Assembly (NCBI GenBank): GCA_902573755.1
Contig: CACGLD010000008.1
Coordinates: 1-32,957 of the forward strand
Length of the DNA: 32,957 nt
Reading direction: 5' to 3'
Origin: an uncultured Pelagibacteraceae bacterium
Lineage (GTDB): Bacteria > Pseudomonadota > Alphaproteobacteria > Pelagibacterales > Pelagibacteraceae
Shown: piece by piece, positions 6,381 to 20,764 of the stretch
Layout: each line of letters opens with the position of its first letter
Numbering within the stretch: position 1 is the first letter of the stretch
The notes under the pieces: generated by a model
Seen by the model: the letters and a program-made list of their open reading frames with translations, nothing else
Told to the model about the DNA's origin: nothing
Databases searched by the model: none
Program-made: the position numbers and the translations under genes

Positions 6381-6383
6381 TAA

Positions 6384-7643
6384 TTAATTAGTTAATTTTA
6401 AATCTAAATACAAAGCTGCGGACCAAGAAAAATTATTTGCACCCATTGGTTTACCATTCTTACAACTGTAATATTCATGAAATCCTTTTTTTTCCACCAA
6501 TCTAATAGTGCTTAGTTTAATTTTTTTTGAGTATTTTTCATCCTTATTAATGAGGCCCTTAAAAATAAACCAATTACAATTAACCCAAACAGGACCTCTC
6601 CAATATCGTTTTTCCTCAAAGCTTTTGTGATTAGGTTTTATTGAAGAAAAGAAGTATTTTTCTTTTAAGTTATGTTTTTTTAAATTTTTAATTAAAACAT
6701 TATTTATTTTATGATTATTAATATCAGCAAACAATACTAGGTAATTTGTTATTGAAGGAACTGATATTTTTTTTTTATTTCTTATATCAAATGAAAAAAA
6801 AGCACCCTTTTTTTTATCAAAAAATCTTAAAATGTTTCTCTCAGTAAGTTTCACATAATTAATAATTTTTGAGCTATCTAGATTAAATTCTTTTAAAAGT
6901 ATGATTAAATCTTTATTTGCTTTAAGAAATATAGAGTTAAATCCAATATCAACGACATTGAACAATGCGGTATTGAATATTTTTTTTGGATTATACTTCT
7001 TTTTTCTAAGATCATTTTTAATCGTCACATACCTATCATAGTCAATATTTAAAGGTCTATGTTCTGGATTAATGACTTTATTATCAGCTCTTTTGTATTG
7101 TATATTTTTTTCAATTTCAACTTTACTCATTGGTCCATCCCAAAGTGAAGAATTGTCATAACCGCTTTCCCACGGATGAAGTATGGATATCAAACCAGTT
7201 TTTTTGGGATCTCTATATTTAATAAACCATTCATGAGATTTTTTAATTTTAATTATAAATTTTTTAATTTCTTTTTTTTGTTTTTTAGTAATTTTATTTT
7301 TATCTATGATTTGTTTTAAAATGCTTGCGAGTACTGGGGGTTGAGTTATTCCTGAGGAGTGAATTTTATTTCCACAATTCCAAGCAGTATGATTAGGATA
7401 GTAATTAGTATTTGTGTCATGAAATAGAATGTGCGGAATCATTCCATCTTTCCATTGTCCATCTAAAAGAGTTTTAATTTCTTTTAATGCAAAATTTAAA
7501 TTAAAATAAGAATATCCTAATGCAATAAATGCTGAATCCCAGTTCCATTGAGCAGGATATAATTTATTATTTGTCGGTAAGGTATATCCTCTTTTTCTAT
7601 TTCCAATTAAAATTTTTTGAGCATTTTTAATAAACCTATTCAT
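6384..7643 (-). CDS. GH63-type alpha-glycosidase (mannosyl/glucosylglycerate hydrolase-like)
   Basis: A 419-residue protein without a signal peptide, hence cytoplasmic. It resembles the single-domain (alpha/alpha)6-barrel glycosidases of GH63, such as bacterial mannosylglycerate and glucosylglycerate hydrolases. Seen are YPAQWNWDSAFIALG near residue 29, GMIPHI at 67, GITQPP at 98, HPWESGYDNSSLWD at 156-169, YWRGPVWVNCNW at 347 and FHEYY at 388. By analogy Asp163 (GYDNS) is the general acid and Glu390 (HEYY) the general base. It is the last gene of the - strand importer operon, its ATG overlapping the permease stop by one base (TAATG), so it probably cleaves the imported glycoside. The compatible solutes glucosyl- or mannosylglycerate are attractive substrates but unproven. 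Confidence 0.75.
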   Translation of the reverse strand: MNRFIKNAQKILIGNRKRGYTLPTNNKLYPAQWNWDSAFIALGYSYFNLNFALKEIKTLLDGQWKDGMIPHILFHDTNTNYYPNHTAWNCGNKIHSSGITQPPVLASILKQIIDKNKITKKQKKEIKKFIIKIKKSHEWFIKYRDPKKTGLISILHPWESGYDNSSLWDGPMSKVEIEKNIQYKRADNKVINPEHRPLNIDYDRYVTIKNDLRKKKYNPKKIFNTALFNVVDIGFNSIFLKANKDLIILLKEFNLDSSKIINYVKLTERNILRFFDKKKGAFFSFDIRNKKKISVPSITNYLVLFADINNHKINNVLIKNLKKHNLKEKYFFSSIKPNHKSFEEKRYWRGPVWVNCNWFIFKGLINKDEKYSKKIKLSTIRLVEKKGFHEYYSCKNGKPMGANNFSWSAALYLDLKLTN

Positions 7644-8836
7644 TATCCTTTAACGCTTCCTGCTGTCAAACCGCTCACTAGATATTTTTCAAAATAAACA
7701 AATATAAATAATACTGGTAATGTAACAACAACTGACCCTGCCATTAAATATTGTCTTGGCGTTTCAGCATCTCCACTTAAGTATTGAATAGCTCTCGATA
7801 ATGTAAATGAATTTGGATTGTCCAAAAACATTAAAGAAAATAAAAATTCATTCCAAGCAATCATAAAAACATACAAAGCAACAGATGAAATAGCTGGAAT
7901 ACTTAGCGGAATTATAATTTTTGTAATAATTCCAAACCAACTTAATTTATCTAATATTGCAGCTTCCTCTAATTCTTTTGGTATGCTTTTGAAGTATCCT
8001 TGTAACATATAAATAGCTACTGGGAGTGTTGTTGCTGTATACACTATTAATAAACCTTCAATTGAATTACGTAAACCTAATTGACTAAATATTGTATACA
8101 ATGGAATAACAAGAACGATTGCAGGAAACATATAAATTATAAGTATAGATGTAGATAAAAATGTTTTTCCAAAAAAATTTAATCTTGCAACTGCATAAGC
8201 AGCAGGTATTGCAAAAAGAAGAGTGATAATAACAGTACCGATAGAAACAATTGTACTAATCACAATATATTTTCCAAATTTATAAGATTTAAAAATTACA
8301 AAATAAGATTTAAATAAATCTTTTATATCCTGGCCAAAATTTATACTAAAATCTAAAGGATTCACTAACAATGCTATTTGTGTTTTAAAACTTGTTACTA
8401 ACATCATGTAAAATGGAAAAAGTATTACAAATGAAAAAAATAAAATTCCAAATAAAGTTAAAAAATCAAATAAAATTACTTGAGTAGAGTGCTCTTCTTT
8501 TAAACCTATAAAAGTATATTTGCTAATTTTATTGGTAAAAAAATATAATATTAAAAATACGCCCACATTATACCAAATTGGTAATTTTTGTATTAAGTAA
8601 CCATCACAAAAAACGAATATTAGAGAAAAAATGATTGATTTATAAAATGATTTAATTCTATCACCTATTCCCAAGTGAGCTAATGATATTAAAAGACCAA
8701 ATATAAAAATTATTTCTATATTAAAGCTATTAATACTTAAACCTTGCAATGTTGCTAATATCTTCCAAATCGAAATTAAAAAAATTAAGAAAAAAGTAGA
8801 TATCAACGAAAATAGTATTGTATTTTTAATTCTCAT
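7643..8836 (-). CDS. CUT1-type ABC sugar permease (MalG-like) with N-terminal membrane extension
   Basis: A 397-residue inner-membrane permease. The core from about residue 118 is a normal MalG-type binding-protein-dependent permease with six helices, the EAA loop EEAAILDKLSWFGIITKIIIP contacting the ATPase, and the typical ending VSGLTAGSVKG. Before it lie about 117 residues with four more predicted helices (roughly 5-27, 39-57, 66-82, 88-101), which usual MalG proteins of about 280 residues lack. The role of the extension is unknown. The gene overlaps the upstream permease by 11 bases and the downstream glycosidase by one, indicating translational coupling. It should form the translocation pore with the 419-residue permease at 8826. 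Confidence 0.88.
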   Translation of the reverse strand: MRIKNTILFSLISTFFLIFLISIWKILATLQGLSINSFNIEIIFIFGLLISLAHLGIGDRIKSFYKSIIFSLIFVFCDGYLIQKLPIWYNVGVFLILYFFTNKISKYTFIGLKEEHSTQVILFDFLTLFGILFFSFVILFPFYMMLVTSFKTQIALLVNPLDFSINFGQDIKDLFKSYFVIFKSYKFGKYIVISTIVSIGTVIITLLFAIPAAYAVARLNFFGKTFLSTSILIIYMFPAIVLVIPLYTIFSQLGLRNSIEGLLIVYTATTLPVAIYMLQGYFKSIPKELEEAAILDKLSWFGIITKIIIPLSIPAISSVALYVFMIAWNEFLFSLMFLDNPNSFTLSRAIQYLSGDAETPRQYLMAGSVVVTLPVLFIFVYFEKYLVSGLTAGSVKG

Positions 8837-10085
8837 CTACTCTTTTTCCTAAAAGTTTAAAATAAAAAAACATAAACATTAAAAGCAGTACAACGATTAC
8901 TATTGAAACAGCGGAGCCCATTCCAATGTCTGATATTGCAAAACCTTGTTGATAAACATTTATTGGTAAAGTTCTTGTTCCTGATGCACCTCCAGTTAAT
9001 AAAAAGACATCCTCAAATTTATTAAAATTCCATATAAATCTAATCATAAATAAAATTGAAATTACTGCAGTAATTTGAGGAAGTGTAATATTAAAAAATT
9101 TTTGAAAGGGACTAGCTCCATCAACATCAGCTGCCTCATATAATTCTTTTGGAATAGCTTGAAGTCTCGCAAGAATAAATAAAAAGGCTAAAGGAAAATA
9201 CCTCCAAATTTCAAACATTATAACTGTTGTAAGTGCTAACCTTAATTTAAAATCAAAGCCCAAAATACTTATTTCAATATATTTTTGTCCAAGAAGGTTT
9301 ATTGGAGTTTCAATAATTTGATAATTTAGTAATAAGCTATTTAAGGTACCGCTATTTGGGTCTAGTAAAAGTTCCCAGGTATAAGCTAAAGCTACAACAG
9401 GAGCAACATAAGGAAAAAGCAGAACACTTCTCATAAATGTTCTTCCATAAAATTTTTGATTTACCATTTGAGCTGTTAAAATCCCAAATACTATTGAGCC
9501 AACTGTTCCAAAGAATGTGTAATAAAATGTTGTTAGTAGTAAATCTATAAATTCATTTTCAAATAAAACTTTTTTAAAGTTTTTAAGAGTAAAGTTAGTA
9601 TTAAGTAATATATTATCAGATTTCCCATCCAATTTTGGTTTAATTGATTTAAGATTTTTTTTGTCTATTTTTGATCCATCATTTGTTGCAAATATTACTT
9701 GGAAATTTTCCCTATATTTAGCTGGCCAATTTCCAAATTCACATTTTAAGTTATACTTTTTAAAAGAGCATCTTGGATCTAAATTTTTAATTTCAAAATT
9801 TTTTGGAAAATTATCTTGAAACGAAACATCTCTAATTTCTTGAATTAATGAACTATTTCTTAACTTATATAATATTTTTATTTTAGTAGGTTCATCAGAA
9901 ATAGATTTTACAATTTTTTTTGCTCTTGGTTCTGGAATTCGAATATCTTTTAGCTCAACTTCTTTAAAACTAATCCAAATATTTGCAAAAATCGGAAATA
10001 AAATTATTGAAAAAACTAAAAGAACTGCAGGTAGTGTTAGTATGTATGCAGTTTTTTTTTCTGTATTTGCTAAAGTATCGTTCAT
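8826..10085 (-). CDS. CUT1-type ABC sugar permease (MalF-like) with large periplasmic loop domain
   Basis: A 419-residue permease. One helix (about 14-37) is followed by a long loop (about 38-180) and then the five-helix permease core, with the EAA loop EAADVDGASPFQKFFNITLP for the ATPase. The loop, which should face the periplasm, reads like a beta-sandwich of DUF11/Ig type: an LRN segment, then VSFQDNFPKNFEI, Cys106 and Cys115, and FGNWPAKYRENFQVIF. It may parallel the Ig-like P2 loop of E. coli MalF, which touches the binding protein. The ATG lies one base after a 15-bp hairpin, so its ribosome binding site must lie within the hairpin's 3' arm or be dispensable. It lies 47 bases after the binding-protein gene. 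Confidence 0.88.
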   Translation of the reverse strand: MNDTLANTEKKTAYILTLPAVLLVFSIILFPIFANIWISFKEVELKDIRIPEPRAKKIVKSISDEPTKIKILYKLRNSSLIQEIRDVSFQDNFPKNFEIKNLDPRCSFKKYNLKCEFGNWPAKYRENFQVIFATNDGSKIDKKNLKSIKPKLDGKSDNILLNTNFTLKNFKKVLFENEFIDLLLTTFYYTFFGTVGSIVFGILTAQMVNQKFYGRTFMRSVLLFPYVAPVVALAYTWELLLDPNSGTLNSLLLNYQIIETPINLLGQKYIEISILGFDFKLRLALTTVIMFEIWRYFPLAFLFILARLQAIPKELYEAADVDGASPFQKFFNITLPQITAVISILFMIRFIWNFNKFEDVFLLTGGASGTRTLPINVYQQGFAISDIGMGSAVSIVIVVLLLMFMFFYFKLLGKRVDEN

Positions 10086-10086
10086 A

Positions 10087-10120
10087 AAAAAAGCGGATAA
10101 TTTATATTATCCGCTTTTTT
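10087..10120 (-). terminator. Intercistronic hairpin between binding protein and permease genes
   Basis: A perfect 15-bp inverted repeat: arms 10087-10101 and 10106-10120 with a 4-base loop. In the - strand RNA it is a GC-centred stem ending in a run of U, so it has the form of a factor-independent terminator. It lies 12 bases after the binding-protein stop and one base before the permease ATG. It likely gives partial termination or protects the upstream mRNA from decay, yielding more binding protein than permease. Confidence 0.75.
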
Positions 10121-10132
10121 AAAAAATTTAAA

Positions 10133-11464
10133 TTAATTGAATTTAGCTAATGATTTGTTAATCATATCAACAGCTTCATCGACATCAATTTGATCATCAA
10201 TATAAAGTCTAGTAATTCTATTTATAAATTGAGAATTTATGACTTTTGACGCTCTTGATAGTTCGCCTTCTTTAACACCCCATCTATTCGCAGTATCCAA
10301 ACCAGCTACAATGTTATTAATAACATCTGGGTCATATAGATCAGACAAAGGTGCTTTTCTATCAACTCCAACAGGTAGTTTACTCCAAGCTTTCGTGAAA
10401 GCCTCAGGGTCACTTGAGTTTCCTCTTCTTACAGGAAATTTACCTTCTGGAGCTATCGATAATGTGCTTGTGTAACCTTCATCCATTGAGTACATGATGA
10501 ATTGTTTAGCTTCATCTGTATCAGCATCAGCTGTTATACCAAAATATCTAACATCTGCCCATGCAGCACCTTTCTTATTACTTGGTCCACTAAAATTAGT
10601 AATGAAACCGGTTTTAGAAGCTAGCTCAGGTGATGTTGGATCACTGTTAATTGTTGGTGGAGCCGAGTCTCTTAAACCTGCAAGCTCATCCATGATGAAT
10701 GGAGACCAAATAATCATTGGAGTTTTTCCTGCAAAGTAAAGTGCTCTAGATTGTTTCCAATACAATTCTCCTGGAGGACTTGCTTTTGCAATTACTTTAT
10801 AAAACTCTAATGCTTCTTTTAATTTCTTACCTTGTTTTTTGATTCCACCTTTTTTAACAATATTAACTCCATTTGCTAAAAGAACGTGCTCTAAAACCTG
10901 ACTCATAAAATTTTCATCAGTTTTAGTTGCAGCAACAAAACCAAACATTCCGTTTTGTTTTGATAGCTTCTCAACAGCAGCTACGATGTTTGCATAGCTT
11001 GTTGGTGGTGCTAAATCTGCATTTTCAAAAAGGTCTTTTCTATAAACAACCATTTGTGTCCATCCATCTACGGGAACAGCTGCAATTTTTGAACCTTTTT
11101 TTGCCATGTTAAGTGCACCTGGCGCAAATGTATTTTTACCAAGTTCTTTTACAACATCGTCATTAGCATCTACATCTAAAATTCCTGCTTCAGCCCATGG
11201 TAATACATATTGTAAAGTGTGATATATAACGTCTGGTAAGTCTCCTGCTGCTGCAGCAGCTGTGGCTCTAGTTCCCAATTCTTTTTCTTCTACTGGGATT
11301 ACATCTACCTTAATACCTGTTTTAGCTTCAAAAGCTTTTGCCATTTCCTCTTGTTTAGCCATTCGGGCAGGCTGAACTTCTGTAGTCCAAAACTTTATGT
11401 CTGCGTAAACAACATTCGAAATAAAAAACGAAATCACGCAAAACATTTTTATTATATTTTTCAT
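10133..11464 (-). CDS. ABC transporter sugar-type substrate-binding protein (family 1)
   Basis: A 443-residue periplasmic binding protein. A signal peptide spans about residues 1-21 (KN-II-K then a hydrophobic core ending VVYA before DIKFW). The mature part starts with a strand IKFWTTEV and carries FEAKTGIKVDVIPV, GDLPDVIYH, VDGWTQMVVYRKDLFE and later GKTPMIIWSP, all usual for extracellular solute-binding family 1 proteins of CUT1 importers. The C-terminal region RASKVINSQFINRI fits family helices. The ligand is unknown; the downstream GH63-type glycosidase suggests a small glycoside. A strong AGGAGG at 11469-11474 sits 4 bases before the ATG. Own promoter and operator-like palindrome lie upstream, so this gene heads the permease-glycosidase operon. 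Confidence 0.9.
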   Translation of the reverse strand: MKNIIKMFCVISFFISNVVYADIKFWTTEVQPARMAKQEEMAKAFEAKTGIKVDVIPVEEKELGTRATAAAAAGDLPDVIYHTLQYVLPWAEAGILDVDANDDVVKELGKNTFAPGALNMAKKGSKIAAVPVDGWTQMVVYRKDLFENADLAPPTSYANIVAAVEKLSKQNGMFGFVAATKTDENFMSQVLEHVLLANGVNIVKKGGIKKQGKKLKEALEFYKVIAKASPPGELYWKQSRALYFAGKTPMIIWSPFIMDELAGLRDSAPPTINSDPTSPELASKTGFITNFSGPSNKKGAAWADVRYFGITADADTDEAKQFIMYSMDEGYTSTLSIAPEGKFPVRRGNSSDPEAFTKAWSKLPVGVDRKAPLSDLYDPDVINNIVAGLDTANRWGVKEGELSRASKVINSQFINRITRLYIDDQIDVDEAVDMINKSLAKFN

Positions 11465-11500
11465 TTCTCCTCCTATTTATGCCCAAACTATATTAAAATG

Positions 11501-11529
11501 ATTCTATTTAGCAAAGACACGAGGGTCAC
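11501..11529 (-). promoter_or_regulatory. Candidate promoter of the - strand binding-protein gene
   Basis: Read on the - strand: GTGACC (4 of 6 matches to TTGACA) at 11529-11524, a 17-base spacer and TAGAAT (5 of 6 matches to TATAAT) at 11506-11501. It sits 37 bases upstream of the ATG at 11464, which has a strong AGGAGG. The -35 hexamer overlaps one arm of the palindrome at 11526-11544. Confidence 0.45.
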
Positions 11530-11544
11530 ATATCAGATATGTGA
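11526..11544. promoter_or_regulatory. 19-bp palindromic operator candidate
   Basis: A perfect palindrome of two 9-bp arms around one central base, TCACATATC-A-GATATGTGA. It overlaps the -35 hexamer of the candidate promoter for the binding-protein operon, where a repressor would block RNA polymerase. No LacI-, GntR- or similar regulator is encoded next to it. It is too AT-rich and its loop too short to be a terminator for the ATPase gene that ends at 11607. Confidence 0.6.
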
Positions 11545-11606
11545 TTGATACATGCAGATTATTCAAAAAACGGGGGAATATTGAATTTTGTCAATTATAG
11601 GTTGTG

Positions 11607-12662
11607 TTATGATTTTAATCTTTTTCCATTTTCATCAAAAATAAAAATGTCATTTAGATCAAAACCTATAGAATTTCCTATTTCAACATTGCTTGGGATT
11701 TTTGCACTTAATTGATGTTCATCTTTTTTCATATATACAATTTTTTCATTACCAAGATTTTCAATTAATTCTATTTCAGGATTAAAAGTAAATTTTGTAT
11801 TCTGATTTGCTTTTAAATGTTCGGGCCTAATACCCACAAAATGTTTTGATTTTTTTAATTTTAAATTATCAAATTGAATATCATTACCTAACAATTTAAT
11901 TGTATTTTCTGAAACAACATTTTCCTCATTGACATCTAAGATATTCATTTTGGGTGTGCCTATAAATTGTGCAACAAAAATATTTGCTGGATCATTATAA
12001 ATTTCCTCAGGAGTACCAACCTGTTCAATATTTCCCTGATTTAGAATAACTATTCGGTCTGCTAAAGTCATAGCTTCAACTTGGTCATGAGTCACATAAA
12101 TCATATTTGTTTTAATTTGATTATGTAATTTAGATATTTCAACCCTCATTTCAGCTCTTAATGCTGCATCAAGATTGGATAAAGGTTCATCAAATAAAAA
12201 TATCTTTGGATTTCTTGTAATAGCTCTTCCTATCGCCACTCTTTGTCTTTGACCTCCAGATAATTGTTTTGGTTTTCGCTCTAATAACTCTTCAATTTTT
12301 AAAATTTTTGCAGCCTGCATAACTTTAGTGTTGATTTCTTCCTTTGGCCTTTTTTCAATTTTTAAACCAAAAGACATATTTTCATAAACATTCATATGAG
12401 GATAAAGAGCGTAAGATTGAAAAACCATTGCAGTTTGACGTTTAGAAGGATGAAGTTCATTAATTTTTTGATCATTAATAAAAATTTCACCTTCATCTAT
12501 TTTTTCTAATCCAGCAATCATTCTTAGAAGAGTTGATTTTCCACATCCAGATGGTCCAACTAATACAAGAAACTCATCCTCTTTACCTAAAAGATTAAAA
12601 TCTGTGATTATTTTATTAGATCCAAATGATTTATGTACTCCAGTAAATTTTATGTTAGCCAT
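11607..12662 (-). CDS. CUT1 ABC importer ATPase (MalK/UgpC-type)
   Basis: A 351-residue cytoplasmic ATPase that powers sugar-type ABC importers. Seen are Walker A GPSGCGKST near residue 37, Q-loop MVFQSYALYPHM, signature LSGGQRQRVAIGRA near 134, Walker B IFLFDEPLSNLD near 154 and the H-loop VTHDQVEAMTLADR near 188, then a C-terminal TOBE/OB regulatory region (about 240-351) with VGIRPEHL. It begins one base after the stop of the tandem NTF2-like gene, so the two are co-translated. It is the only CUT1-type ATPase in the window, while two permease pairs are present (7643-10085 and 18193-20105). It may serve both, as shared MsmX-type ATPases do. That sharing is inference. Confidence 0.92.
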   Translation of the reverse strand: MANIKFTGVHKSFGSNKIITDFNLLGKEDEFLVLVGPSGCGKSTLLRMIAGLEKIDEGEIFINDQKINELHPSKRQTAMVFQSYALYPHMNVYENMSFGLKIEKRPKEEINTKVMQAAKILKIEELLERKPKQLSGGQRQRVAIGRAITRNPKIFLFDEPLSNLDAALRAEMRVEISKLHNQIKTNMIYVTHDQVEAMTLADRIVILNQGNIEQVGTPEEIYNDPANIFVAQFIGTPKMNILDVNEENVVSENTIKLLGNDIQFDNLKLKKSKHFVGIRPEHLKANQNTKFTFNPEIELIENLGNEKIVYMKKDEHQLSAKIPSNVEIGNSIGFDLNDIFIFDENGKRLKS

Positions 12663-12663
12663 T

Positions 12664-13749
12664 TTATTTTTTTATACTTTCTAAAACATCAACTCCAATT
12701 TGTTTTAATATATGGATTATATCAATTGGAACCCAATTTTCACGAATTTTTCCTTCGTCATGATGATAAAAATCCATAACTCTCATAGTAACATTTTGGT
12801 TTTCAGATTTATAACCCAGCCAATCCTCAGTTCCATATATGGCCTGAATACTATTCCATCCTGCTGTTAAAGAAAATTTTCCATCACCTAACTCGCAATA
12901 ATGACCAAGTTTCCAATAATTTCTTTCTTTAAAAGTTTTTCTAAAAGGTAACTGATGATTATCTACAAATCCCTCTAAAGATCTGGCAGTTCCAATACCA
13001 CTTGGTCCATACCAAATCATTTTTTCATGCCAAAAATCTTTTTGTGGATGGTTTATTAATCTTTCCTTAAGATTTTTATCAGAAGAAACCTCTAATTCAG
13101 GTTTTATATTTAAACTTCTCTGCATGATAAGTGATTGCTCTAAACTTGCTTTAGAAATTTCCATATCTTTTTCAAAAAAATTTACACCATCTGTGTTAAT
13201 TGGATTTAACCAATTTCCTTCAGATCCTCTTGAAAGATTAATTGGATTTGATCCAGTTTGTATTAATAGGTCTATTAAATCGATTAAAATATAACTCTCA
13301 ACAATTTTATCATCTTTAAGCTGATGAATTTCACAACACTTTAGATTTACCATTTTGTTATTAGGTTGAATGCCTAACCATGGATTTTTAAATACGCCTG
13401 ATAATGAAGAAATTGAACCTACTTGAATTTTATCTCTAAAAGCGCCACTAATTACTATTTGCTCTCTTCTTTCAAGATCAGGAAATGAGTTAAAAAGAGG
13501 TTTCCAAAATTTTTCTTTAAAATTATCAACTCCTGAAAATTCATTTAATGGGTAAAAACAATTAACATTAATATTCTGAGAGAACGCATTTTTAAGATTT
13601 TGATCAAGTTTAGAGATGCCACCATTTACTATTGAATTTAAATATTTTCTGACAACTTGTTTGTAATTATAATTTTCTTCGGGTGAGATGACTTTTTTTT
13701 CCACTTTATCTTGACCCTTAAGACCTGTATCAAATTGTTCAATTTGCAT
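12664..13749 (-). CDS. Tandem NTF2/SnoaL-like domain protein
   Basis: A protein of 361 residues from the ATG at 13749. The frame is open to a GTG at 13779, which would leave only 20 bases to the divergent cupin gene; I prefer the ATG, though neither start has a clear ribosome binding site. Two SnoaL/NTF2-like alpha+beta-barrel domains can be made out, about residues 25-150 (NFKEKFWKPLFNSFPDLERR) and 215-355 (a WYGPSGIG stretch, then EGFVDNHQLPFRKTF). Such domains occur in polyketide cyclases, isomerases and ligand-binding proteins, so no reaction can be deduced. Its partner at 14744 has the same two-domain plan. It is coupled to the importer ATPase one base downstream, which ties it to processing or sensing of the imported compound. 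Confidence 0.75.
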   Translation of the reverse strand: MQIEQFDTGLKGQDKVEKKVISPEENYNYKQVVRKYLNSIVNGGISKLDQNLKNAFSQNINVNCFYPLNEFSGVDNFKEKFWKPLFNSFPDLERREQIVISGAFRDKIQVGSISSLSGVFKNPWLGIQPNNKMVNLKCCEIHQLKDDKIVESYILIDLIDLLIQTGSNPINLSRGSEGNWLNPINTDGVNFFEKDMEISKASLEQSLIMQRSLNIKPELEVSSDKNLKERLINHPQKDFWHEKMIWYGPSGIGTARSLEGFVDNHQLPFRKTFKERNYWKLGHYCELGDGKFSLTAGWNSIQAIYGTEDWLGYKSENQNVTMRVMDFYHHDEGKIRENWVPIDIIHILKQIGVDVLESIKK

Positions 13750-13799
13750 ATATTTTTTGTTAGATAATTTTACTATCACAAAATATAGTTTAAAAAAAT

Positions 13800-14744
13800 A
13801 TGAATAATCGATTAGCTAAATTTGAAGATCTTGTTCCAAGTACTTTGCCATTTGTTGAAGGCAAACTTGAAGGTCATAAAGAAAGAAAAAATTATTCTAT
13901 TGTAGGCCCAGGTGTCGCAGAGGATAGTAAACAATTTGTTAAAATAGCAATGCCACATAGTTTTAATCTAGGTGCTGTGTCTGCTATGCCTAAAAATGGA
14001 TCCGGTTTACATAGCCATACAACTGCAGAAGTTTTCATTATTTATTCCGGCAAATGGAAATTTTATTGGGGAGCAGAAGGTAAGGATGAAACGATATTAG
14101 GTGCAGGAGATATTATCTCTATGCCTACTAATATGTTTAGGGCATTTGAAAATGCAGGTGATGAAGAAGGTTTAATTTTTGTCGTTTTAGGTGGAGATGA
14201 TCCGGGAATAATAACTTGGGTTCCAAGTGTCTTAGAAAAAGCAAAGAAAACAGGTATGGCACTTTTAAATGATAATTCATTAATTGATTTATCTTTAAAT
14301 GAAATTCCGAAAGGAAAAAGTATTCTAAAACCAATTTCTAAAGAAGAAATAAAAAAATTTGATAACTATAAACTGAATCAGCTAGAAAAATTTATATGTA
14401 AATATAATGAAAATACAAAACAAGTTACTAAGATAAACGATAATATTAATTTAATTCAAATTCTTGGAAAAAAATTTGAAAATAAAGAATACGCTCCATT
14501 AATAAATCAAGATACTGGATTTAACCTTTCAATTTTAAAATCTAATAATGGACAAATAAATAATTTAAAGTTTGAAAAACCTACAATATTATTTTCAAGA
14601 ACTGGTAAGTGGGAAATTATGATTGATGACTTTCAATGTATTTTAAATCCCAAAGATACAATTTCTATCCCAATTAATTCTAATGTTAATATAAAGATAA
14701 ATGAAAAAAAGGATTGTTACTTAAATTGTGTAACACAAATCTAA
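13800..14744 (+). CDS. Bicupin-like protein with one intact cupin
   Basis: A 314-residue protein. The N-terminal cupin (about 45-135) has motif 1 with His71, His73 and Glu77 (HSHTTAEVF) and motif 2 as GDIISMPTNMFRAFEN, where the position of the usual metal-binding His is Arg114. A metal could therefore be held by only three side chains. The C-terminal half (about 210-314) looks like a second, degenerate cupin without His ligands (LFSRTGKWEIMI, then ILNPKDTISIPINS). Cupins include dioxygenases, isomerases and sugar-binding proteins; I cannot choose among them. It heads the + strand operon cupin, NTF2-like, MetE-like. Its stop overlaps the next start (TAATG). It is divergent from the NTF2-like/ATPase operon across about 50 bases. 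Confidence 0.75.
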   Translation: MNNRLAKFEDLVPSTLPFVEGKLEGHKERKNYSIVGPGVAEDSKQFVKIAMPHSFNLGAVSAMPKNGSGLHSHTTAEVFIIYSGKWKFYWGAEGKDETILGAGDIISMPTNMFRAFENAGDEEGLIFVVLGGDDPGIITWVPSVLEKAKKTGMALLNDNSLIDLSLNEIPKGKSILKPISKEEIKKFDNYKLNQLEKFICKYNENTKQVTKINDNINLIQILGKKFENKEYAPLINQDTGFNLSILKSNNGQINNLKFEKPTILFSRTGKWEIMIDDFQCILNPKDTISIPINSNVNIKINEKKDCYLNCVTQI

Positions 14745-15706
14745 TGAAAGGATTTGATCAAAAATATAAAAACTTTCCTGATTATATTCTCAAAATAACT
14801 AAACAAATTTGGGAAAACAAAGATGTTGAGTCTATTGCTCAATTTTACACCGATAATATTCCTGTTAGATCACCTTTTGGAGTTACTTATGGAAATAAAC
14901 CTGTAATTGATGCAACTTATGCAACATTAAAAGAATTTCCTAACAGACAGTTACTTGGTGAAGATGTGATCTGGAATGGAAATGATGATTTAGGATATCA
15001 CTCTTCTCACAGAATTTTAAGCAAAGGAACACATCTTGGAGATGGTTCATATGGTAAACCAACTAAGAAAGATATTTATTATAGAGTCATTGCTGATTGT
15101 GCGTGCAAAAATAATCAAGTCTATGATGAATGGATTGTCCGTGATCAAGGTGCAATGGTAAGACAAATAGGATTTACACCAAAAGAATTTGCACAAATGA
15201 TTATTGATAAAGAAGGTGGTGCTGACAAAGCACAACAATTATTCAATTCAAGCTCTGAGATGAAATCAGATTACAAACAAGGCGTTGTGCCAAATGAATC
15301 TGTTGGAGGAAATTACTCAAAAATATTAAAAAATATCTTTAAAAATAAGTATGATTTCTCTGATTATGCAAGAGCTGCAACTATCTATTGGCCTGGAAAT
15401 AAAATTGGACATGGAAGAGAGGATATTGTCAAATTTTGGAATAATTTAAAGAATACTTTTAGCGATATAAAGTTTTCAATTGAACATGTTGGTTATTTAG
15501 AAGAGCCAGATAAAAATCCCAAAGCATCAATAAGATGGTTTTTAGAAGGTATTCATTCTAAAGACACTTTAGATTTTGGAGAAAAGTCAAATAAAAATAT
15601 TTTTATAATGGGTATAAACCATGCAGAAATAATTGATGGAAATGTTATAAGAGAATGGGTTTTGTTTGATGAGGTTGCAATTTGGAAACAAATTTTAATG
15701 AAATAA
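14744..15706 (+). CDS. Second tandem NTF2/SnoaL-like domain protein
   Basis: A protein of 320 residues starting at the ATG at 14744, which overlaps the cupin stop as TAATG; the frame is open further upstream, but the coupled ATG is the better start. Two NTF2/SnoaL-like domains: about residues 10-150 (FYTDNIPVRSPFG, then DEWIVRDQGAMVRQIG) and 185-318 (YARAATIYWPGNKIGHGRED, then INHAEIIDGNVIREWVLFDE). The second domain shows the classical SnoaL ending, in which a conserved Glu/Trp strand precedes an Asp-containing turn. It resembles the protein at 12664-13749 in plan, and the two flank the divergent promoter region, so they may form a pair or a complex. Function unknown, probably on the imported compound. 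Confidence 0.78.
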   Translation: MKGFDQKYKNFPDYILKITKQIWENKDVESIAQFYTDNIPVRSPFGVTYGNKPVIDATYATLKEFPNRQLLGEDVIWNGNDDLGYHSSHRILSKGTHLGDGSYGKPTKKDIYYRVIADCACKNNQVYDEWIVRDQGAMVRQIGFTPKEFAQMIIDKEGGADKAQQLFNSSSEMKSDYKQGVVPNESVGGNYSKILKNIFKNKYDFSDYARAATIYWPGNKIGHGREDIVKFWNNLKNTFSDIKFSIEHVGYLEEPDKNPKASIRWFLEGIHSKDTLDFGEKSNKNIFIMGINHAEIIDGNVIREWVLFDEVAIWKQILMK

Positions 15707-15709
15707 AAT

Positions 15710-16837
15710 ATGAGTAAAATTAAAACAACACATGTGGGAAGTTTACCCAGATCAAATGAATTATCCGAACTCTTGTTTAAAAAAGATCAAAAAGAAAAAA
15801 TAGATTTTAATCAATTTGATAAAGTCGTCCAAAAAGATGTTAACAACATTGTTAAAAAACAAATTGAGGTTGGAATTGATTATATCAGTGATGGTGAAAT
15901 GTCTAAAATTAGTTATGCTACTTATGTTAAGGATAGAATTGATGGATTTTCTGGAGAGAGTGAGAGAAAAGCACCAAAAGATTTAGATGACTTTCCTTCT
16001 TTCAAAGAAAGAATTGCAAGAACAGGTGGGACACCTACTTACACAAGACCATGTTGTACAAGTGAATTAAAAATAAAAGATAAAACTTCCCTAACAAAAG
16101 ATATTAATAATTTTAAGCAAGCACTAGAAAATAATAATCATAAAGATGGTTTCATGAACGCTGCCTCTCCTGGAGTTATTTCTGCTTTCTTGCCAAATAA
16201 ATATTATAAAAATGATGACGAATATTTAGAAAATTTATCTAATCTTATGAAAGATGAGTATGAGGAAATTACCTCAAATGGATTAAAACTTCAGTTAGAT
16301 TGTCCAGATTTGGCTCTTGCTAGACATATGACTTTTAAAGATTTATCAGAATCTGAATTTCTAGTTAGAGCTGAAAAACAAATAGAATGTCTTAACAATG
16401 CTATCAATAATATCGACAGTTCTAATATAAGATTGCATATCTGTTGGGGAAATTATGAGGGACCTCATCTACATGATATTCCGTTAGAAAAGATAATGCC
16501 AATTGCATTGAAAGCTAATGTGCAGACTTATCTAATTGAGTCATCTAATCCAAGACATTCTCATGAGTGGCAAATTTTTGAAAATTTAAAAATTCCAAGA
16601 GACAAAATAATTGCCCCAGGCGTAATAGATTCTACAACAAATTTTGTTGAACATCCCGAAGTTGTAAAGAATAGAATTTTAACTTTTTCTAAAGTTATTG
16701 ATGCGGAACAATTATTAGCTGGAACTGACTGTGGGTTTAGCACCTTTGCTGGCTTTGGCAATGTAGACGAAAATATAGTTTATAAAAAACTTGAGGCTCT
16801 CGTAAGAGGTGCGGAACTTGCGTCAAAAGTGATTTAA
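15710..16837 (+). CDS. MetE C-terminal-like zinc methyltransferase (YxjG/YxjH-type)
   Basis: A 375-residue protein equal to the catalytic barrel of cobalamin-independent methionine synthase, without the N-terminal half of MetE. It begins with the family motif THVGSLPR (7-14). The zinc ligands match E. coli MetE: His243 and Cys245 (LHICWGNY), Glu277 (LIESSN) and Cys341 (GTDCGF). Asp199 lies in LDCPDLALARH. Such short homologues move methyl groups to homocysteine from varied donors, and related epoxyalkane-CoM transferases use the same zinc site to activate a thiol. The gene starts 4 bases after the NTF2-like gene, so its substrate may come from the same pathway rather than from folate. A terminator hairpin overlaps its stop codon. 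Confidence 0.85.
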   Translation: MSKIKTTHVGSLPRSNELSELLFKKDQKEKIDFNQFDKVVQKDVNNIVKKQIEVGIDYISDGEMSKISYATYVKDRIDGFSGESERKAPKDLDDFPSFKERIARTGGTPTYTRPCCTSELKIKDKTSLTKDINNFKQALENNNHKDGFMNAASPGVISAFLPNKYYKNDDEYLENLSNLMKDEYEEITSNGLKLQLDCPDLALARHMTFKDLSESEFLVRAEKQIECLNNAINNIDSSNIRLHICWGNYEGPHLHDIPLEKIMPIALKANVQTYLIESSNPRHSHEWQIFENLKIPRDKIIAPGVIDSTTNFVEHPEVVKNRILTFSKVIDAEQLLAGTDCGFSTFAGFGNVDENIVYKKLEALVRGAELASKVI

Positions 16838-16848
16838 TTATCACTTTT
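16825..16848 (+). terminator. Probable factor-independent terminator after the MetE-like gene
   Basis: Nine-base arms at 16825-16833 and 16840-16848 (AAAAGTGAT and ATCACTTTT) with a 6-base loop that contains most of the stop codon. The 3' arm ends in TTTT, followed by ATT. It separates the cupin-NTF2-MetE-like unit from the second binding-protein operon, which has its own promoter. Confidence 0.6.
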
Positions 16849-16851
16849 ATT

Positions 16852-16893
16852 CTATATCAGGAGTAGATATAGTTTTCTAACTTAAATTATAAT
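16852..16893 (+). promoter_or_regulatory. Candidate promoter and inverted repeat before the second binding-protein gene
   Basis: A perfect TATAAT at 16888-16893 with TAGATA (4 of 6 to TTGACA) at 16864-16869 and an 18-base spacer. An inverted repeat CTATATC-N7-GATATAG spans 16852-16872 and overlaps the -35. The ATG follows at 16922 with AGAGAG ahead of it. The ATATC/GATAT arms recall the palindrome at 11526-11544, though the spacer differs (7 versus 1 base). Confidence 0.45.
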
Positions 16894-16921
16894 TTAACAA
16901 CAAATAATAGAGAGAAAACAT

Positions 16922-18142
16922 ATGAGAAAAATACTAGTTACTTTATTGTTTCTGCTTTTTGGAACTTCTGCATTTGCAGATTGTAACATTAAAAGTGGTT
17001 CAATAAATATTTTGGCAAATGATTTTCCTGCATTAAGAACTTTCGTTGAAACTTCTAAGCAATGTAAAGGAAGTGCTGATTTTAAAGTGACTCACTCATC
17101 TGAGCATAATAAAATCGCAGTGCCAGCTTTAACTGCAAATCCATCTGAGTTTTCAGCAAGAATTGCAGCAAATAGTTCAATTGTTCCTTTGATGAACCAA
17201 GATTTGATAAGACCATTAGATGATCTTGTTAAAAAATATGGAAAAGGAATTCAAGATTCTCAATTAATTACAATTGATGGAAAAGTAATGGCTGTAGCAT
17301 TTATGGCTAACACTCAACACTTATATTATAGAGAAGATGTATTGAAAGATATGGGTATAGCTGTACCAAAAACTTACGAGGAAGTAGTTGCAGCATCTGA
17401 AAAAATTAGAGCTTCAGGTAAAATGCAATATCCTTATGCAGCTGCTTACAAAGCTGGATGGAACTTAGCAGAAGAATTTGTAAACATGTTTATAGGTCAT
17501 GGTGGTGAATTCTTTAAATCTGGAAGTGCAGAGCCTAATATAAATAATGCAAAAGGTGTTGCTACTTTAAATATGTTAAAAAAATTATCTGAATTGAGTA
17601 ACCCTGATTACTTAACTCATGATAGTGAAGCAATTAAAGTAGAATGGGAATCTGGAAATGTTGCATTAATGACTTTATGGGCATCTAGATCAGGAACTCT
17701 TCTAGATGATGAAGGTGATCCTAACATTACAAAAGCAACTAAATTAACTGGACCTGCTACTGTAGGTGGAGGAAATATTCCAGCCGCTACGTTATGGTGG
17801 GATGGTTTCACGCTTGCAAAAAACAGACCTGATGCAGATGCTGAAGCAACTTTTAGAGCTTTAGCGCATGCAGCATCAAATAAAAAGATGGTTGCTGACG
17901 CTGCTGATCAAGCTGTTTGGTTAGTAGAAGGTTTTGTACCAGGACCAAAATCTATTGGTGTTATCGAAGCTGTAAAAATGGGAGCAAAACCATATCCAAT
18001 GTTACCGCAAATGGGTTTAATGCATGGTGCATTAGGAAGTGAGATTGTTGAGTTTTTACAAGGTAAAGAGTCAGCTGAACAAGCATTGAAAGATGTTGAG
18101 GCTGCTTACATTAGTAAAGCTAAAGAACAAGGCTTTCTATAA
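16922..18142 (+). CDS. ABC transporter sugar-type substrate-binding protein (second importer)
   Basis: A 406-residue periplasmic binding protein with a signal peptide of about 19 residues (RKILVTLLFLLFG, cleavage after FA) followed by DCNIKSG. Family 1 features include SEFSARIAANSSIVPLMNQDL, a loop LYYREDVLKDMGI typical of CUT1 binding proteins, ALMTLWASRSG and a Trp-rich WWDGF. Cys21 and Cys34 of the precursor could form a disulfide. The ligand is not predictable. It differs clearly from the binding protein at 10133 and probably binds another ligand. It has its own promoter and heads the permease-permease-HAD operon; a hairpin follows its stop. No ATPase gene is present in this operon. Confidence 0.9.
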   Translation: MRKILVTLLFLLFGTSAFADCNIKSGSINILANDFPALRTFVETSKQCKGSADFKVTHSSEHNKIAVPALTANPSEFSARIAANSSIVPLMNQDLIRPLDDLVKKYGKGIQDSQLITIDGKVMAVAFMANTQHLYYREDVLKDMGIAVPKTYEEVVAASEKIRASGKMQYPYAAAYKAGWNLAEEFVNMFIGHGGEFFKSGSAEPNINNAKGVATLNMLKKLSELSNPDYLTHDSEAIKVEWESGNVALMTLWASRSGTLLDDEGDPNITKATKLTGPATVGGGNIPAATLWWDGFTLAKNRPDADAEATFRALAHAASNKKMVADAADQAVWLVEGFVPGPKSIGVIEAVKMGAKPYPMLPQMGLMHGALGSEIVEFLQGKESAEQALKDVEAAYISKAKEQGFL

Positions 18143-18155
18143 AATCTAAAACTTA

Positions 18156-18180
18156 TAAGTGGGGATTTACTCCCCACTTA
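18156..18180 (+). terminator. Intercistronic hairpin after the second binding-protein gene
   Basis: A perfect 10-bp stem, arms TAAGTGGGGA (18156-18165) and TCCCCACTTA (18171-18180), with a 5-base loop. The run of four G-C pairs stands out in this AT-rich DNA. It lies 13 bases after the binding-protein stop and 12 before the permease ATG. There is no long U-tract, so mRNA stabilisation of the upstream cistron or weak attenuation is likelier than full termination. Confidence 0.65.
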
Positions 18181-18192
18181 ATCATTATTTAA

Positions 18193-19221
18193 ATGCCTAA
18201 TAAAACTTTTTTCTGGTTTTTTTTACCTACAGGCTTAGCAATGATCCTGTTTATTGGGTTACCAATTATATCTACTGGCATTCAATCTTTTTACGCACAA
18301 CATGATCAAGTAGTAAAAGAAGTTAAAAAATGTGACCCTTTTGGATGTACTGTTTCAATTGTCGTTGATAACGAAGAAACCTCTAAAATTAGAGAAGCAA
18401 AGCCTCTTGGAAAATTTAATGGTTTTGGCACTTATACTGATCGAAATCATTTAGCAGTTGATGAAATAAAAAAATTTTGGAATGAAACTGAAAGTTTTGG
18501 TGCTTTTGTAGACCAGGTAACTAATCTACCTTTTTATAAAGCTCTGATATTTACTTTAACTTATTGTTTGTTTGTTACACCAAATGTACTCCTCTTAGGA
18601 TTTATTATTGCATTAAGTTTAAATGCAGTCGCTAGAAAAATTAGAGGACCTTTAATCTTTGGTACAATTTTACCGATGATTGTTACACCTTTGGTAGGAT
18701 CATTGGTATTATTTTGGATGATAGACTCTCAAGGTATAATTGGAGCAAATATTCAAAATTTGATGAATGACCCATATTTATCACTTAAATCATCAAAAAC
18801 ATTAACTTGGATAACAATTATTATTTATGGTATTTGGCATCACTCCCCTTTTGCCTTTGTAGTTTTTTACGCAGCACTTCAAACAGTCCCTCAAGAACCA
18901 ATTGAAGCTGCAATTATAGATGGAGCCTCAAGATTTCAAAGAATTAAACATATAGTTTTACCACATATTTATCCTGTAGTTACATTTGTTGCTTTAATTT
19001 CTTTAATGGATAACTTTAGAGTATTTGAACCCATTATAGGGTTTAGTGCTGAAGGAAGTGCACAATCTTTATCTTGGTTAATCTATGACAATTTAGTTAA
19101 TGAGGAAGTGATATTGTTTGGTTCTGCAGCAGCTACTTCAATGATGACTATTATTGGTATAGCTATTCTACTGGCACCAGTATTAATTAGAACTTGGAAA
19201 GAATTTAAAACAGCGAGATAA
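18193..19221 (+). CDS. CUT1-type ABC sugar permease (MalF-like), second importer
   Basis: A 342-residue inner-membrane permease. Helix 1 (about 6-28) is followed by a periplasmic loop of about 90 residues containing Cys47 and Cys52 (KKCDPFGCTV), then the five-helix core. The EAA loop EAAIIDGASRFQRIKHIVLP (about 237-256) contacts the ATPase. The loop is shorter than in the MalF-like protein at 8826 but occupies the same place. It begins 50 bases after the binding-protein gene, across the hairpin, and is followed 2 bases after its stop by the partner permease at 19224. The ATPase is presumably supplied by another locus, the nearest candidate being the gene at 11607. Confidence 0.9.
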   Translation: MPNKTFFWFFLPTGLAMILFIGLPIISTGIQSFYAQHDQVVKEVKKCDPFGCTVSIVVDNEETSKIREAKPLGKFNGFGTYTDRNHLAVDEIKKFWNETESFGAFVDQVTNLPFYKALIFTLTYCLFVTPNVLLLGFIIALSLNAVARKIRGPLIFGTILPMIVTPLVGSLVLFWMIDSQGIIGANIQNLMNDPYLSLKSSKTLTWITIIIYGIWHHSPFAFVVFYAALQTVPQEPIEAAIIDGASRFQRIKHIVLPHIYPVVTFVALISLMDNFRVFEPIIGFSAEGSAQSLSWLIYDNLVNEEVILFGSAAATSMMTIIGIAILLAPVLIRTWKEFKTAR

Positions 19222-19223
19222 TT

Positions 19224-20105
19224 ATGGATTATGGACTAGATACAAAATCAACTCGTTTAAAAACTTTTAATACTATTTTTATAATCACTTGGTTGTTAAT
19301 TGCTTGCTTTCCTTTTATTTGGACTTTTTGGGGATCATTTAAAGTAAGAGCTGATTTCTTTTCAAGATCTGATTGGTGGTATGCAATATCAGCATTTAAT
19401 ACTTTAATTGAAACAGGCGGAAAATTTACAACTAATGCTTATACACAAGCTTGGACAGAAGGTGAATTTTGGAAAGCATCAAAAAATACAATTATAGTTA
19501 CAGTATTTGTTGTAAGTATTTCTTTGTTTTTAGGAACTTTAGGAGCGTATGCTCTTTCAAGATCAACTGAAAAATATGCTTTTTGGATTTTAATGGCAGC
19601 TTTAATTTTTAGAGCTATGCCACATATAACTTTAGTATCAGGATATCTTTTTCCTTTCTTTGAATTACAGATTTGGGGAATTCTTCCAACTACAATTGTT
19701 GTTTTGGTTGCTATAAATCAACCTTTTACACTATGGTTACTCTACTCCTTTTTTAAAACAGTTCCTAAAGAGCTTGACGAAAGTGCTTTAATAGATGGTT
19801 GTTCATATTTTCAAGCTTTTAGACATATTATTATGCCTGTGATGTGGCCTGGTGTAATTACAGCGGGATTATTTAGTTTAATGTTAGCTTATAATGATTT
19901 TACAGTAACAGCATTACTTCTTAATCAAGAAAATCATACTATGGTTCCAAAAATACAAAGTTATTTAGGTACAAATCAACATGAAGGAAATTTAATGTGG
20001 GCAGTTTCTGCAGTTGTATCTGCTACCGCACCTTTATTTATGCTTGTTATGTTTTTCCAAAGACAGGTCATTAGTGGTTTGACTGCTGGAGCTGTAAAAG
20101 GTTGA
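19224..20105 (+). CDS. CUT1-type ABC sugar permease (MalG-like), second importer
   Basis: A 293-residue permease of usual MalG length with six predicted helices, the first at about 15-36. The EAA loop is ESALIDGCSYFQAFRHIIMP (about 190-210), and the protein ends in ISGLTAGAVKG, nearly the same ending as the permease at 7643. Unlike that protein it has no extra N-terminal helices. It starts 2 bases after the preceding permease stop, and its own stop overlaps the TTG start of the HAD-like gene (TTGA), so all are one operon. Confidence 0.92.
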   Translation: MDYGLDTKSTRLKTFNTIFIITWLLIACFPFIWTFWGSFKVRADFFSRSDWWYAISAFNTLIETGGKFTTNAYTQAWTEGEFWKASKNTIIVTVFVVSISLFLGTLGAYALSRSTEKYAFWILMAALIFRAMPHITLVSGYLFPFFELQIWGILPTTIVVLVAINQPFTLWLLYSFFKTVPKELDESALIDGCSYFQAFRHIIMPVMWPGVITAGLFSLMLAYNDFTVTALLLNQENHTMVPKIQSYLGTNQHEGNLMWAVSAVVSATAPLFMLVMFFQRQVISGLTAGAVKG

Positions 20106-20764
20106 AATATTATAAAGCATTACTTTTTGGTTCTATTGGATCTATTGTTGAAACTTCAGAAATTCAAAGAAAGTCATTCAATAAAGCATTCAAGCAATAT
20201 GGGCTCGATTGGAATTGGACCAAACGTGAGTATCAAAGGTTATTAAGTAAATCTGGTGGCAAAGATAGAATATCAAGATATGCTAAAAAGAAAAAGATTG
20301 AAGTTAACTCAGTATATTTAAGAAATTTAAAAACTAAAATCTTTAATAATTATCTTAAAAAAAATCAGATTAAATTAAGACCAGGTGTTAAAAATTTAAT
20401 TTCTTTATGTAAAAAAGAAAATATAAAAATTGCATTCGTTTCATCTACATCTTCAAACAATATAAATGCAATCTTATATTGTTTAAGAAATTCAATTAAA
20501 AAAAGAGATTTTAACTTTATAGGGAATGCAAAATTAGTAAAAAAATTCAAACCCAACCCAGATATATACTTATTAGCACTTAAAAAACTAAAGCTTAAAG
20601 CTAATGATTGTGTGGCCATTGAAGATACTCAAGAAAGTTTAAATTCAGCTAGGAGAGCTAAAATAAAATGTATAATTTTTCCTGGAAAATTTCATTCTTC
20701 AAAAAAATTTACTGGAGCTTATAAAAAGGTTTATCAGCTAAATAAAAATATTATTTTGAGATAA
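20102..20764 (+). CDS. HAD-superfamily (CbbY/beta-phosphoglucomutase-like) protein with degenerate motif I
   Basis: A 220-residue protein starting at TTG, which overlaps the permease stop as TTGA; no ATG is available nearby and the HAD fold begins at once, so this start is sound. The cap plus core plan fits subfamily I phosphatases/phosphomutases. Motif II (VSSTSSNN near 113), motif III Lys150 (KKFKPNPDIY) and motif IV Glu174-Asp175 (AIEDTQES) are present. Motif I, normally DxDGT/S, reads GSIGS at residues 10-14, so both the nucleophile Asp and the general acid/base Asp are missing. Phosphoryl transfer by the usual mechanism is not expected; a binding, regulatory or altered catalytic role is possible. 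Co-transcribed with the second importer. The 3' end overlaps the convergent hydrolase gene by 14 bases. Confidence 0.8.
   Translation: MKYYKALLFGSIGSIVETSEIQRKSFNKAFKQYGLDWNWTKREYQRLLSKSGGKDRISRYAKKKKIEVNSVYLRNLKTKIFNNYLKKNQIKLRPGVKNLISLCKKENIKIAFVSSTSSNNINAILYCLRNSIKKRDFNFIGNAKLVKKFKPNPDIYLLALKKLKLKANDCVAIEDTQESLNSARRAKIKCIIFPGKFHSSKKFTGAYKKVYQLNKNIILR

Follow-up and report, generated by a model that had tools for sequence, protein, structure and literature searches.

Two separable gene modules

The 32,957-nucleotide contig CACGLD010000008.1, analysed here whole and referred to as the window, belongs to an uncultured Pelagibacteraceae bacterium (assembly GCA_902573755.1, 943,839 bases, 68.6% complete). 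Between positions 6384 and 20764 it carries two neighbouring, separable gene modules that are not one unit (Table 1). M1 (6384-11464) is an importer and enzyme set in the order solute-binding protein (SBP1), permease, permease and a protein of glycoside hydrolase family 63 (GH63). M2 (12664-20764) consists of SnoaL-A, divergent from a run of cupin, SnoaL-B, MetE-like zinc protein, second solute-binding protein (SBP2), permease, permease and HAD-like protein. The seam between them is the ATPase gene at 11607-12662 and not the divergent gap at 13750, because gene order in relatives divides there, with SnoaL-A accompanying the plus-side genes.

A preliminary description of this DNA had treated the roughly 14 kb as a single two-sided locus joined at the promoter gap. 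Its gene inventory holds, since Pfam and NCBIfam profile scans of the window proteins recover every gene that it named: a GH63-like protein, two CUT1 permeases, a binding protein and the ATPase on the minus side; a cupin, a double SnoaL, the short MetE-like protein, a binding protein, two permeases and the HAD on the plus side; and on each side a double SnoaL protein, with PF07366 matched in two stretches each. The 50-bp divergent gap is likewise as described, the SnoaL-A start conserved in relatives being the ATG at 13749, and translational coupling to the importer ATPase stands, with 12664 as the last base of the SnoaL-A stop codon and 12662 as the first base of the ATPase gene. On the plus side, the ATG of SnoaL-B shares position 14744 with the stop codon of the cupin gene. 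The single locus itself was not borne out, because the gene order of relatives separates M1 from M2, and the gap at 13750 was rejected as the joint of two gene sets, SnoaL-A travelling with the plus-side genes.

Table 1. Coordinates of the two modules and of the dehydrogenase gene beside them, with the strongest profile or structure matches.
Feature	Coordinates	Strand	Match or remark
HpsN-type dehydrogenase o6 (R-DHPS dehydrogenase by motif)	5094-6380	+	GRYAH
M1 GH63 MgH/GgH-type glycosyl-glycerate hydrolase (predicted)	6384-7643	-	PF22422 273.9 bits; PDB 2z07 318.4 bits
M1 CUT1 permease (MalG-like)	7643-8836	-	PF00528 69 bits
M1 CUT1 permease (UgpA/MalF-like)	8826-10085	-	PF00528 62.7 bits
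M1 sugar-type solute-binding protein SBP1	10133-11464	-	PF13416 78.2 bits; PDB 7v09 82.2 bits
MalK/UgpC-like ATPase, M1/M2 seam	11607-12662	-	NF008653 464.6 bits, cut-off 432
M2 SnoaL-A, two NTF2/SnoaL domains	12664-13749	-	PF07366 71.9 bits, two stretches
M2 divergent intergenic region	13750-13799		50 bp
M2 cupin protein, probably bicupin	13800-14744	+	PF07883 40.8 bits
M2 SnoaL-B, two SnoaL domains	14744-15706	+	PF07366 66.4 bits, two stretches; start Met conserved
M2 short MetE-like zinc protein, 375 aa, catalytic half only	15710-16837	+	PF01717 60.2 bits
M2 solute-binding protein SBP2	16922-18142	+	PF01547 60.8 bits
M2 CUT1 permease	18193-19221	+	PF00528 51.8 bits
M2 CUT1 permease	19224-20105	+	PF00528 64.5 bits
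M2 HAD-like protein without motif I aspartates	20102-20764	+	PF13419 84.3 bits

Gene order was read in 29 loci fetched from relatives (12 M2 loci and 17 M1 loci, with L079 holding genes of both) and in 80 named loci, the best MetE-like loci among the matches listed in genome_contigs, in which MetE is present by construction and many of which are close kin. The closest named loci are labelled Pelagibacteraceae and come mostly from records called 'isolate AG-' or 'AH-', which we take to be single-cell genomes, in keeping with a SAR11-type bacterium as the source. The exact M2 order is found in 62 of the 80; one locus (L116) has this order without a HAD match, six (L162 and L165-L169) have additional SnoaL genes after MetE and before SBP2, and the order in the remaining 11 is partial, cut off where the contig or locus ends, L164 among them also with extra SnoaL genes. 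Twelve of the 80 loci end before the left flank becomes readable, and among the 68 informative ones M1 adjoins M2 in 16 and does not in 52. Two genomes (G000 and G038) have the modules joined and a third (G022) is consistent with joining across a contig break; nine other relatives with both modules have a different neighbour beside M2. On this gene order the single pathway for all 14 kb that the preliminary description had proposed was rejected as unsupported, and the glycosidase of M1 and the SnoaL/cupin/MetE set of M2 are better read as two pathways.

On the possibility, also raised in that description, that the locus is a chance neighbourhood, the evidence divides: the halves usually lie apart, yet the modules co-occur and may share an ATPase. 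Among 121 genomes, that of the window included, SBP2 was found in 14 (E up to 1e-30) and SBP1 in 26 (E up to 1e-60). SBP1 is present in 13 of the 14 genomes with SBP2 vs 13 of the 107 without it, the lone SBP2 genome that lacks SBP1 (G050) being about 60% complete; with relatedness not corrected for, this co-occurrence has a Fisher p of 1.3e-9, and of 1.3e-6 within the genus (73 genomes). The components of a CUT1 importer are all present (an SBP_bac_1/8 protein, two BPD_transp_1 permeases and a MalK/UgpC-type ATPase), with one ATPase for two permease pairs in this stretch of the window, and an importer role in the uptake of small organic compounds, as first suggested, is supported. A single ATPase lies between the joined modules of G000 and G038, which G022 fits across its contig break; in G005, G031 and G054 it is beside M2 with none beside M1, and in G011, G013, G018 and G039 it is beside M1 (53-55% identity to the window gene) with none beside M2. 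Thus a single ATPase copy is linked to the pair in 10 of the 10 genomes in which its placement could be judged, G004, G047 and G048 being excluded where contigs end. Since M1 and M2 co-occur and the one linked ATPase alternates in position, an ATPase common to both importers is plausible and is the simplest reading.

The M1 importer and GH63 protein

The GH63 protein passes the curated cut-off of the Pfam MGH1-like_GH family (27 bits) and aligns to the Thermus protein 2z07 over residues 8-413, with 187-195 bits to the Mycolicibacterium hassiacum hydrolase. The Thermus protein (TTHA0978) is, we assume, the mannosylglycerate hydrolase (MgH) Tt8MgH. Thirteen residues, including the acid Asp182 and the base Glu419, are reported as conserved in the M. 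hassiacum glucosylglycerate hydrolase (GgH) and in every characterised MgH (PMC6608630). By alignment, all 13 (Asp182, Glu419 and 11 others) are identical in the window protein, and cleavage of a glycoside by an enzyme of the cell, as the preliminary description proposed, is supported for M1 in the form of an MgH/GgH-type hydrolase. To judge from these sequences, glucosylglycerate or a close relative is the probable substrate that M1 imports and cleaves. Glucosylglycerate is reported as a cyanobacterial solute under nitrogen limitation (PMC12636525) and as a main osmolyte of most Prochlorococcus (PMC3686209), while offshore SAR11 genera are said to carry genes for its synthesis (PMC12636525). 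Among the matches listed in the open-access literature, no report of glucosylglycerate breakdown by SAR11 was found, although one may still be in print.

The M2 gene set and its flanking dehydrogenase

Homologues of M2 extend well beyond the genus. In 385 genomes sampled evenly from Alphaproteobacteria, SnoaL-B (E up to 1e-40) is found in 29 and the MetE-like protein (E up to 1e-60) in 72; the two lie within 5 kb of each other in 20 of the 29, at 7 kb in one and on different contigs in two. Plasmid records hold MetE-family matches in 170 cases and SnoaL-A homologues in 23, and five plasmid clusters (L171, L173, L176, L178 and L181) from Ruegeria AD91A, R. conchae, Marinovum, Octadecabacter and Rhizobium SSA_523 bring SnoaL, cupin, MetE-like, CUT1 and HpsN-like genes together. 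Elsewhere the set is present in part: Vibrio pelagius has only the SnoaLs and CUT1, Rhodococcus (L179) and Novosphingobium (L180) have the MetE-like gene without the rest, and a plasmid of the archaeon Halobellus limi (L172:13977-20370) has five ester cyclases in a row with a MetE-like gene and a different ABC importer, with no cupin or HpsN match in the cluster. Alloyangia, Pantoea, Deinococcus and Klebsiella have remoter sets made up of HisD-like, SDR, hydrolase, aldolase or RraA, LacI and cupin genes, with ester cyclases as well in the first three; these look like sugar-acid type catabolism. Judged by gene order and homology, M2 is a conserved unit, a widespread gene set predicted to serve the catabolism of some compound, possibly a methylated one. 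Searches of the open-access literature, with the papers found judged by title and the opening of the abstract, gave no description of a SnoaL-cupin-MetE set. Reading the substrate from PDB relatives of SBP2 was abandoned, as the matches are weak, of mixed sugar-binding kind and at best 44.2 bits; an arsenosugar with a 2,3-dihydroxypropane-1-sulfonate (DHPS) aglycone was considered and dropped, no search for it having been made.

The MetE-like protein retains the metal and thiol sites of its family. In E. coli MetE, zinc is reported to be held by H641, C643, E665 and C726, and S433, E484 and D599 are the homocysteine residues (PMC7857596). In the register given by an Arabidopsis MetE alignment, the equivalents are H243, C245, E277 and C341 for zinc and S11, E63 and D197 for homocysteine, and these seven are invariant in 11 of 11 sequences that range from SAR11 to Rhodococcus and Halobellus; residues for methyl or alkyl transfer to a thiol, as the preliminary description supposed, are thus in place. 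PF01717 is the sole Pfam match in the 375 residues, with no folate-binding N-terminal domain, and no NCBIfam equivalog cut-off is passed (best 115.4 vs 406 bits). Strong matches (at least 71% identity) occur in 11 of the 121 genomes, all inside M2; a twelfth genome has a fragment, and 29 further genomes have weak matches (23-28%). MetH exceeds its family cut-off in none of the 73 relatives, many of which are incomplete, and in 7 of 14 control genomes; partial MetH matches, mostly to the first domain, are found in 62 of the 73. Because no MetH over the cut-off was seen in these relatives, a methyl group passed to homocysteine would be useful to the cells. On the Novosphingobium pentaromativorans plasmid (L180:12004-21263), the MetE-like gene lies near those for an aminomethyltransferase, methylenetetrahydrofolate reductase, purU, methylenetetrahydrofolate dehydrogenase and ligA, a neighbourhood that hints at a role in methyl-group disposal.

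Both SnoaL proteins pass the PF07366 cut-off of 28.4 bits. The model of SnoaL-A (pLDDT 87.4, pTM 0.89) has two NTF2-type domains, the first of which matches the SnoaL-like protein 3kkg (Z 17.8, rmsd 3.0, 143 residues aligned), in a comparison whose VIA-align rows cover mainly residues 23-168 and barely touch the second domain. For the bicupin of the preliminary description, the N-terminal half alone matches Cupin_2, above the cut-off of 27.2 bits; the modelled chain (mean pLDDT 81.0) can be aligned with two-cupin proteins across more than 300 columns, at a TM of about 0.55 and an rmsd of 8-12, and a second cupin domain is likely present in degenerate form. Cupin motifs comprise HxH, a Glu and a His in the second motif; here HxH and Glu are invariant, and Phe replaces the second-motif His in 11 of 11. 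HAD enzymes carry DxDG with the nucleophile aspartate at motif I, where FGSIG stands in 12 of 12 aligned orthologues of the M2 protein, which agrees with the inactive-looking HAD first described and indicates that it is no ordinary phosphatase. HAD homologues are found in 34 plasmid records, the best (42%, Roseobacter litoralis) not in an M2-like cluster, and the 11 scanned plasmid stretches contain no HAD match.

Just outside the region singled out by the preliminary description lies o6, which scores 537.5 bits to the sulfopropanediol 3-dehydrogenase in PDB 8v35 vs 236.3 to the best HisD. HpsN is reported to be recognised by the motif G-R-Y-A/S-H (PMC11382572), and o6 has GRYAH. An HpsN-type gene lies to the left of M2, or past M1 where the two modules are joined, in 64 of the 68 informative loci; of the exceptions, L094, L100 and L110 end too early and L098 has no HpsN-type gene. 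The motif could be read in 51 of the 80 loci as GRYAH (21), GRYNN (25) or GKFPM (5), so that the HpsN rule fits 21 copies and fails for 30, and 7 of the 11 scanned plasmid stretches gave a motif, each GKFPM or GKYPM. The four relatives with GRYNN (G011, G013, G018 and G039) all carry M2, and the 30 other fetched orthologues have GRYAH or GRFAH (34 of the 53 orthologues were fetched). In the same place beside SnoaL-A, with the rest of M2 much alike, the dehydrogenases are of different subfamilies: L168:5487-6773 has GRYNN and L162:5510-6829 has GKFPM, as do L165, L167 and L169, near relatives of L168. The L168 dehydrogenase is 80-82% identical to Pelagibacter GRYNN rows vs 71-73% to GRYAH/GRFAH rows, and the GRYNN rows group together in the dehydrogenase tree with middling support (85/70). 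The flanking frequency, the motif variants and the swap in place at L168 argue for an HpsN-type oxidation as part of M2, by an enzyme whose pocket would no longer be built for sulfonate.

Several features surround these genes. Beside o6, positions 1-5033 hold genes for an L-sulfolactate dehydrogenase-like protein (below cut-off), a TrmB-like regulator, a BASS transporter, an NAD epimerase and a phosphate acetyltransferase-like protein, a block suggestive of C3-sulfonate breakdown that is seen again next to M1 or M2 in relatives. A glycine-betaine-type ABC importer (ProW, ProV and OpuAC-like) lies next to a LysE-type gene at 22118-25704, and some relatives have ProW/OpuAC-like genes between o6 and SnoaL-A. 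At 28413-31226, seven short plus-strand genes follow in a run; the two that were scanned gave no Pfam match, and matches to the run in relatives vary strongly and cross between its members. The contig end (32138-32957) has two partial inositol-monophosphatase matches on opposite strands, which are two genes or a joining artefact. Within 6300-20900, a consensus promoter scan gave 76 sites vs 84.1 expected from shuffles, no excess, and terminator-like sites number 8 vs 5.5 expected. A 10-pair hairpin stands at 18156-18180, between SBP2 and the first M2 permease, perhaps one of those that keep permease expression below that of the binding protein.

Competing explanations and known systems

As a whole, the locus is best explained, with a confidence that we put slightly above even, by two catabolic modules, M1 for a glycosyl-glycerate and M2 for a methyl- or alkyl-bearing substrate, with one ATPase driving both importers. 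M1 would import glucosylglycerate, mannosylglycerate or a close glycoside, and the GH63 enzyme would hydrolyse this glycoside within the cytosol, giving a hexose and glycerate. M2 would bring in another small polar compound by way of its own CUT1 importer. The cupin and the pair of double-SnoaL proteins may open or rearrange this compound, the MetE-like zinc enzyme would move a methyl or alkyl group onto homocysteine or a similar thiol, and the flanking HpsN-type dehydrogenase would oxidise the diol or polyol that remains. The MalK-like ATPase at the seam would power both importers, as its alternating position in relatives suggests. For M2, thiol-linked demethylation is our best guess at the chemistry. 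A bolder form of this proposal, tentative and rather doubtful, would make M2 an undescribed route by which SAR11, roseobacters, rhizobia and haloarchaea alike break down a methylated compound that is abundant in the sea; the SnoaLs and cupin would prepare the substrate, the MetE-like protein demethylate it onto homocysteine and the GRYNN/GKFPM dehydrogenase oxidise the rest, giving SAR11 without MetH a source of methionine.

Several findings weigh against two modules with these functions. The co-occurrence of M1 and M2 is uncorrected for relatedness, the 80 loci include numerous close relatives of one another, and several of the genomes carry other MalK-like ATPases (44-55% identity). The GH63 protein scores below the NCBIfam glucosylglycerate hydrolase equivalog cut-off (300.8 vs 550 bits), because of which it is not filed as a GgH proper. 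MetE is not in every version of M2: six of the 29 SnoaL-B genomes of the class survey have no MetE-like match, and Ensifer adhaerens E-60 (L177) and Paracoccus (L175) have the set without MetE in the stretch seen. HpsN-type genes of at least 73% identity occur in 53 of the 121 genomes, 42 of them without M2 and 11 with it, and o6 may be a mere neighbour of M2 in the clade of the window. Finally, no reported activity was found in the open-access literature for any double-SnoaL, cupin or MetE-like member.

Part of this evidence would also suit other explanations. The modules could have in common only their place of insertion next to the DHPS genes, with no functional link and no common ATPase, as their separation in 52 of 68 loci and the adjacency of each to the o1-o6 block in different genomes would allow. 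We hold this to be somewhat unlikely, given the enrichment of SBP1 among SBP2 genomes (with its p of 1.3e-9, relatedness not corrected) and the placement of the ATPase with one module or the other. The MetE-like protein could be a plain folate-using methionine synthase carried for methionine supply, for which its conserved zinc and homocysteine residues, the lack of a MetH over the family cut-off in the 73 relatives (many incomplete) and the folate and O-demethylation genes around the Novosphingobium homologue speak; it has no folate-binding N-terminal half, its strong matches are confined to M2 in 11 of 121 genomes and it passes no equivalog cut-off, which together leave this unlikely. A housekeeping methionine synthase of the genus was judged unlikely too, most relatives having no strong match.

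Two further accounts concern the substrate of M2. It could be an accessory to DHPS catabolism, SBP2 importing DHPS or a conjugate and HpsN oxidising DHPS; DHPS as the direct substrate was kept only in this role of a competing account. The HpsN-type gene beside M2 in nearly all informative loci and the GRYAH of o6 point this way, as does the report that a SAR11 HpsN equals its roseobacter counterpart in specificity for DHPS (PMC11131964). HpsN-type genes are present in 53 of 121 genomes vs 14 with M2, however, and the sulfonate-recognising His is lost beside M2 in 30 of 51 loci and in the seven plasmid clusters with a motif, so that we consider this account quite improbable. Least probable, and indeed very unlikely, is the handling of an epoxide or thioether, in which the SnoaLs would act as epoxide hydrolases or cyclases and the MetE-like protein would be a thiol transferase or lyase on the model of epoxyalkane:CoM transferase. 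The two-domain structures matched by SnoaL-A do include the polyether epoxide hydrolases Lsd19 and MonB, but the two-domain superposition is poor (rmsd about 16-18) and single domains fit SnoaL-like proteins such as 3kkg better.

M1 offers a concrete, easily tested link from a cyanobacterial solute to SAR11 uptake, and M2 is a gene set conserved among ocean bacteria of very high abundance. Since close versions of M2 lie on plasmids of roseobacters (Ruegeria, Marinovum and Octadecabacter), genetics in these hosts, in place of SAR11 itself, offers a way to its substrate. The three motif variants of the HpsN-type dehydrogenase beside M2 suggest that annotations of histidinol dehydrogenase, and HpsN counts from ocean surveys, may take in enzymes of other function.

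Several parts of the locus have known counterparts from which they also depart. The window GH63 protein matches the hydrolases of Thermus (2z07) and M. hassiacum (5ohc) over nearly its full length, with the acid, base and 11 further residues identical, and shares with the Thermus protein a Phe at the position of Gln434; unlike them, it is coupled to a CUT1 importer in an oligotroph, and it falls below the GgH cut-off. MsiK/MsmK-type ATPases serve CUT1 importers in Gram-positives, and one ATPase for more than one permease pair would likewise be the arrangement here, whereas the gene in the window lineage, unlike those examples, alternates between modules. The SnoaL cyclases and Lsd19/MonB share with SnoaL-A the NTF2 fold and two SnoaL domains, but the M2 proteins stand in a catabolic, importer-linked context. 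HpsN sulfopropanediol 3-dehydrogenase has its GRYAH in common with o6, while the copies that flank M2 elsewhere often have GRYNN or GKFPM and are neither HpsN nor HisD by the published motif. MetE and the core methionine synthases MesA-D share with the MetE-like protein the zinc ligands HCEC and the homocysteine residues S, E and D; in contrast to MetE, the M2 protein is without the folate domain and lies within a transporter-linked catabolic set.

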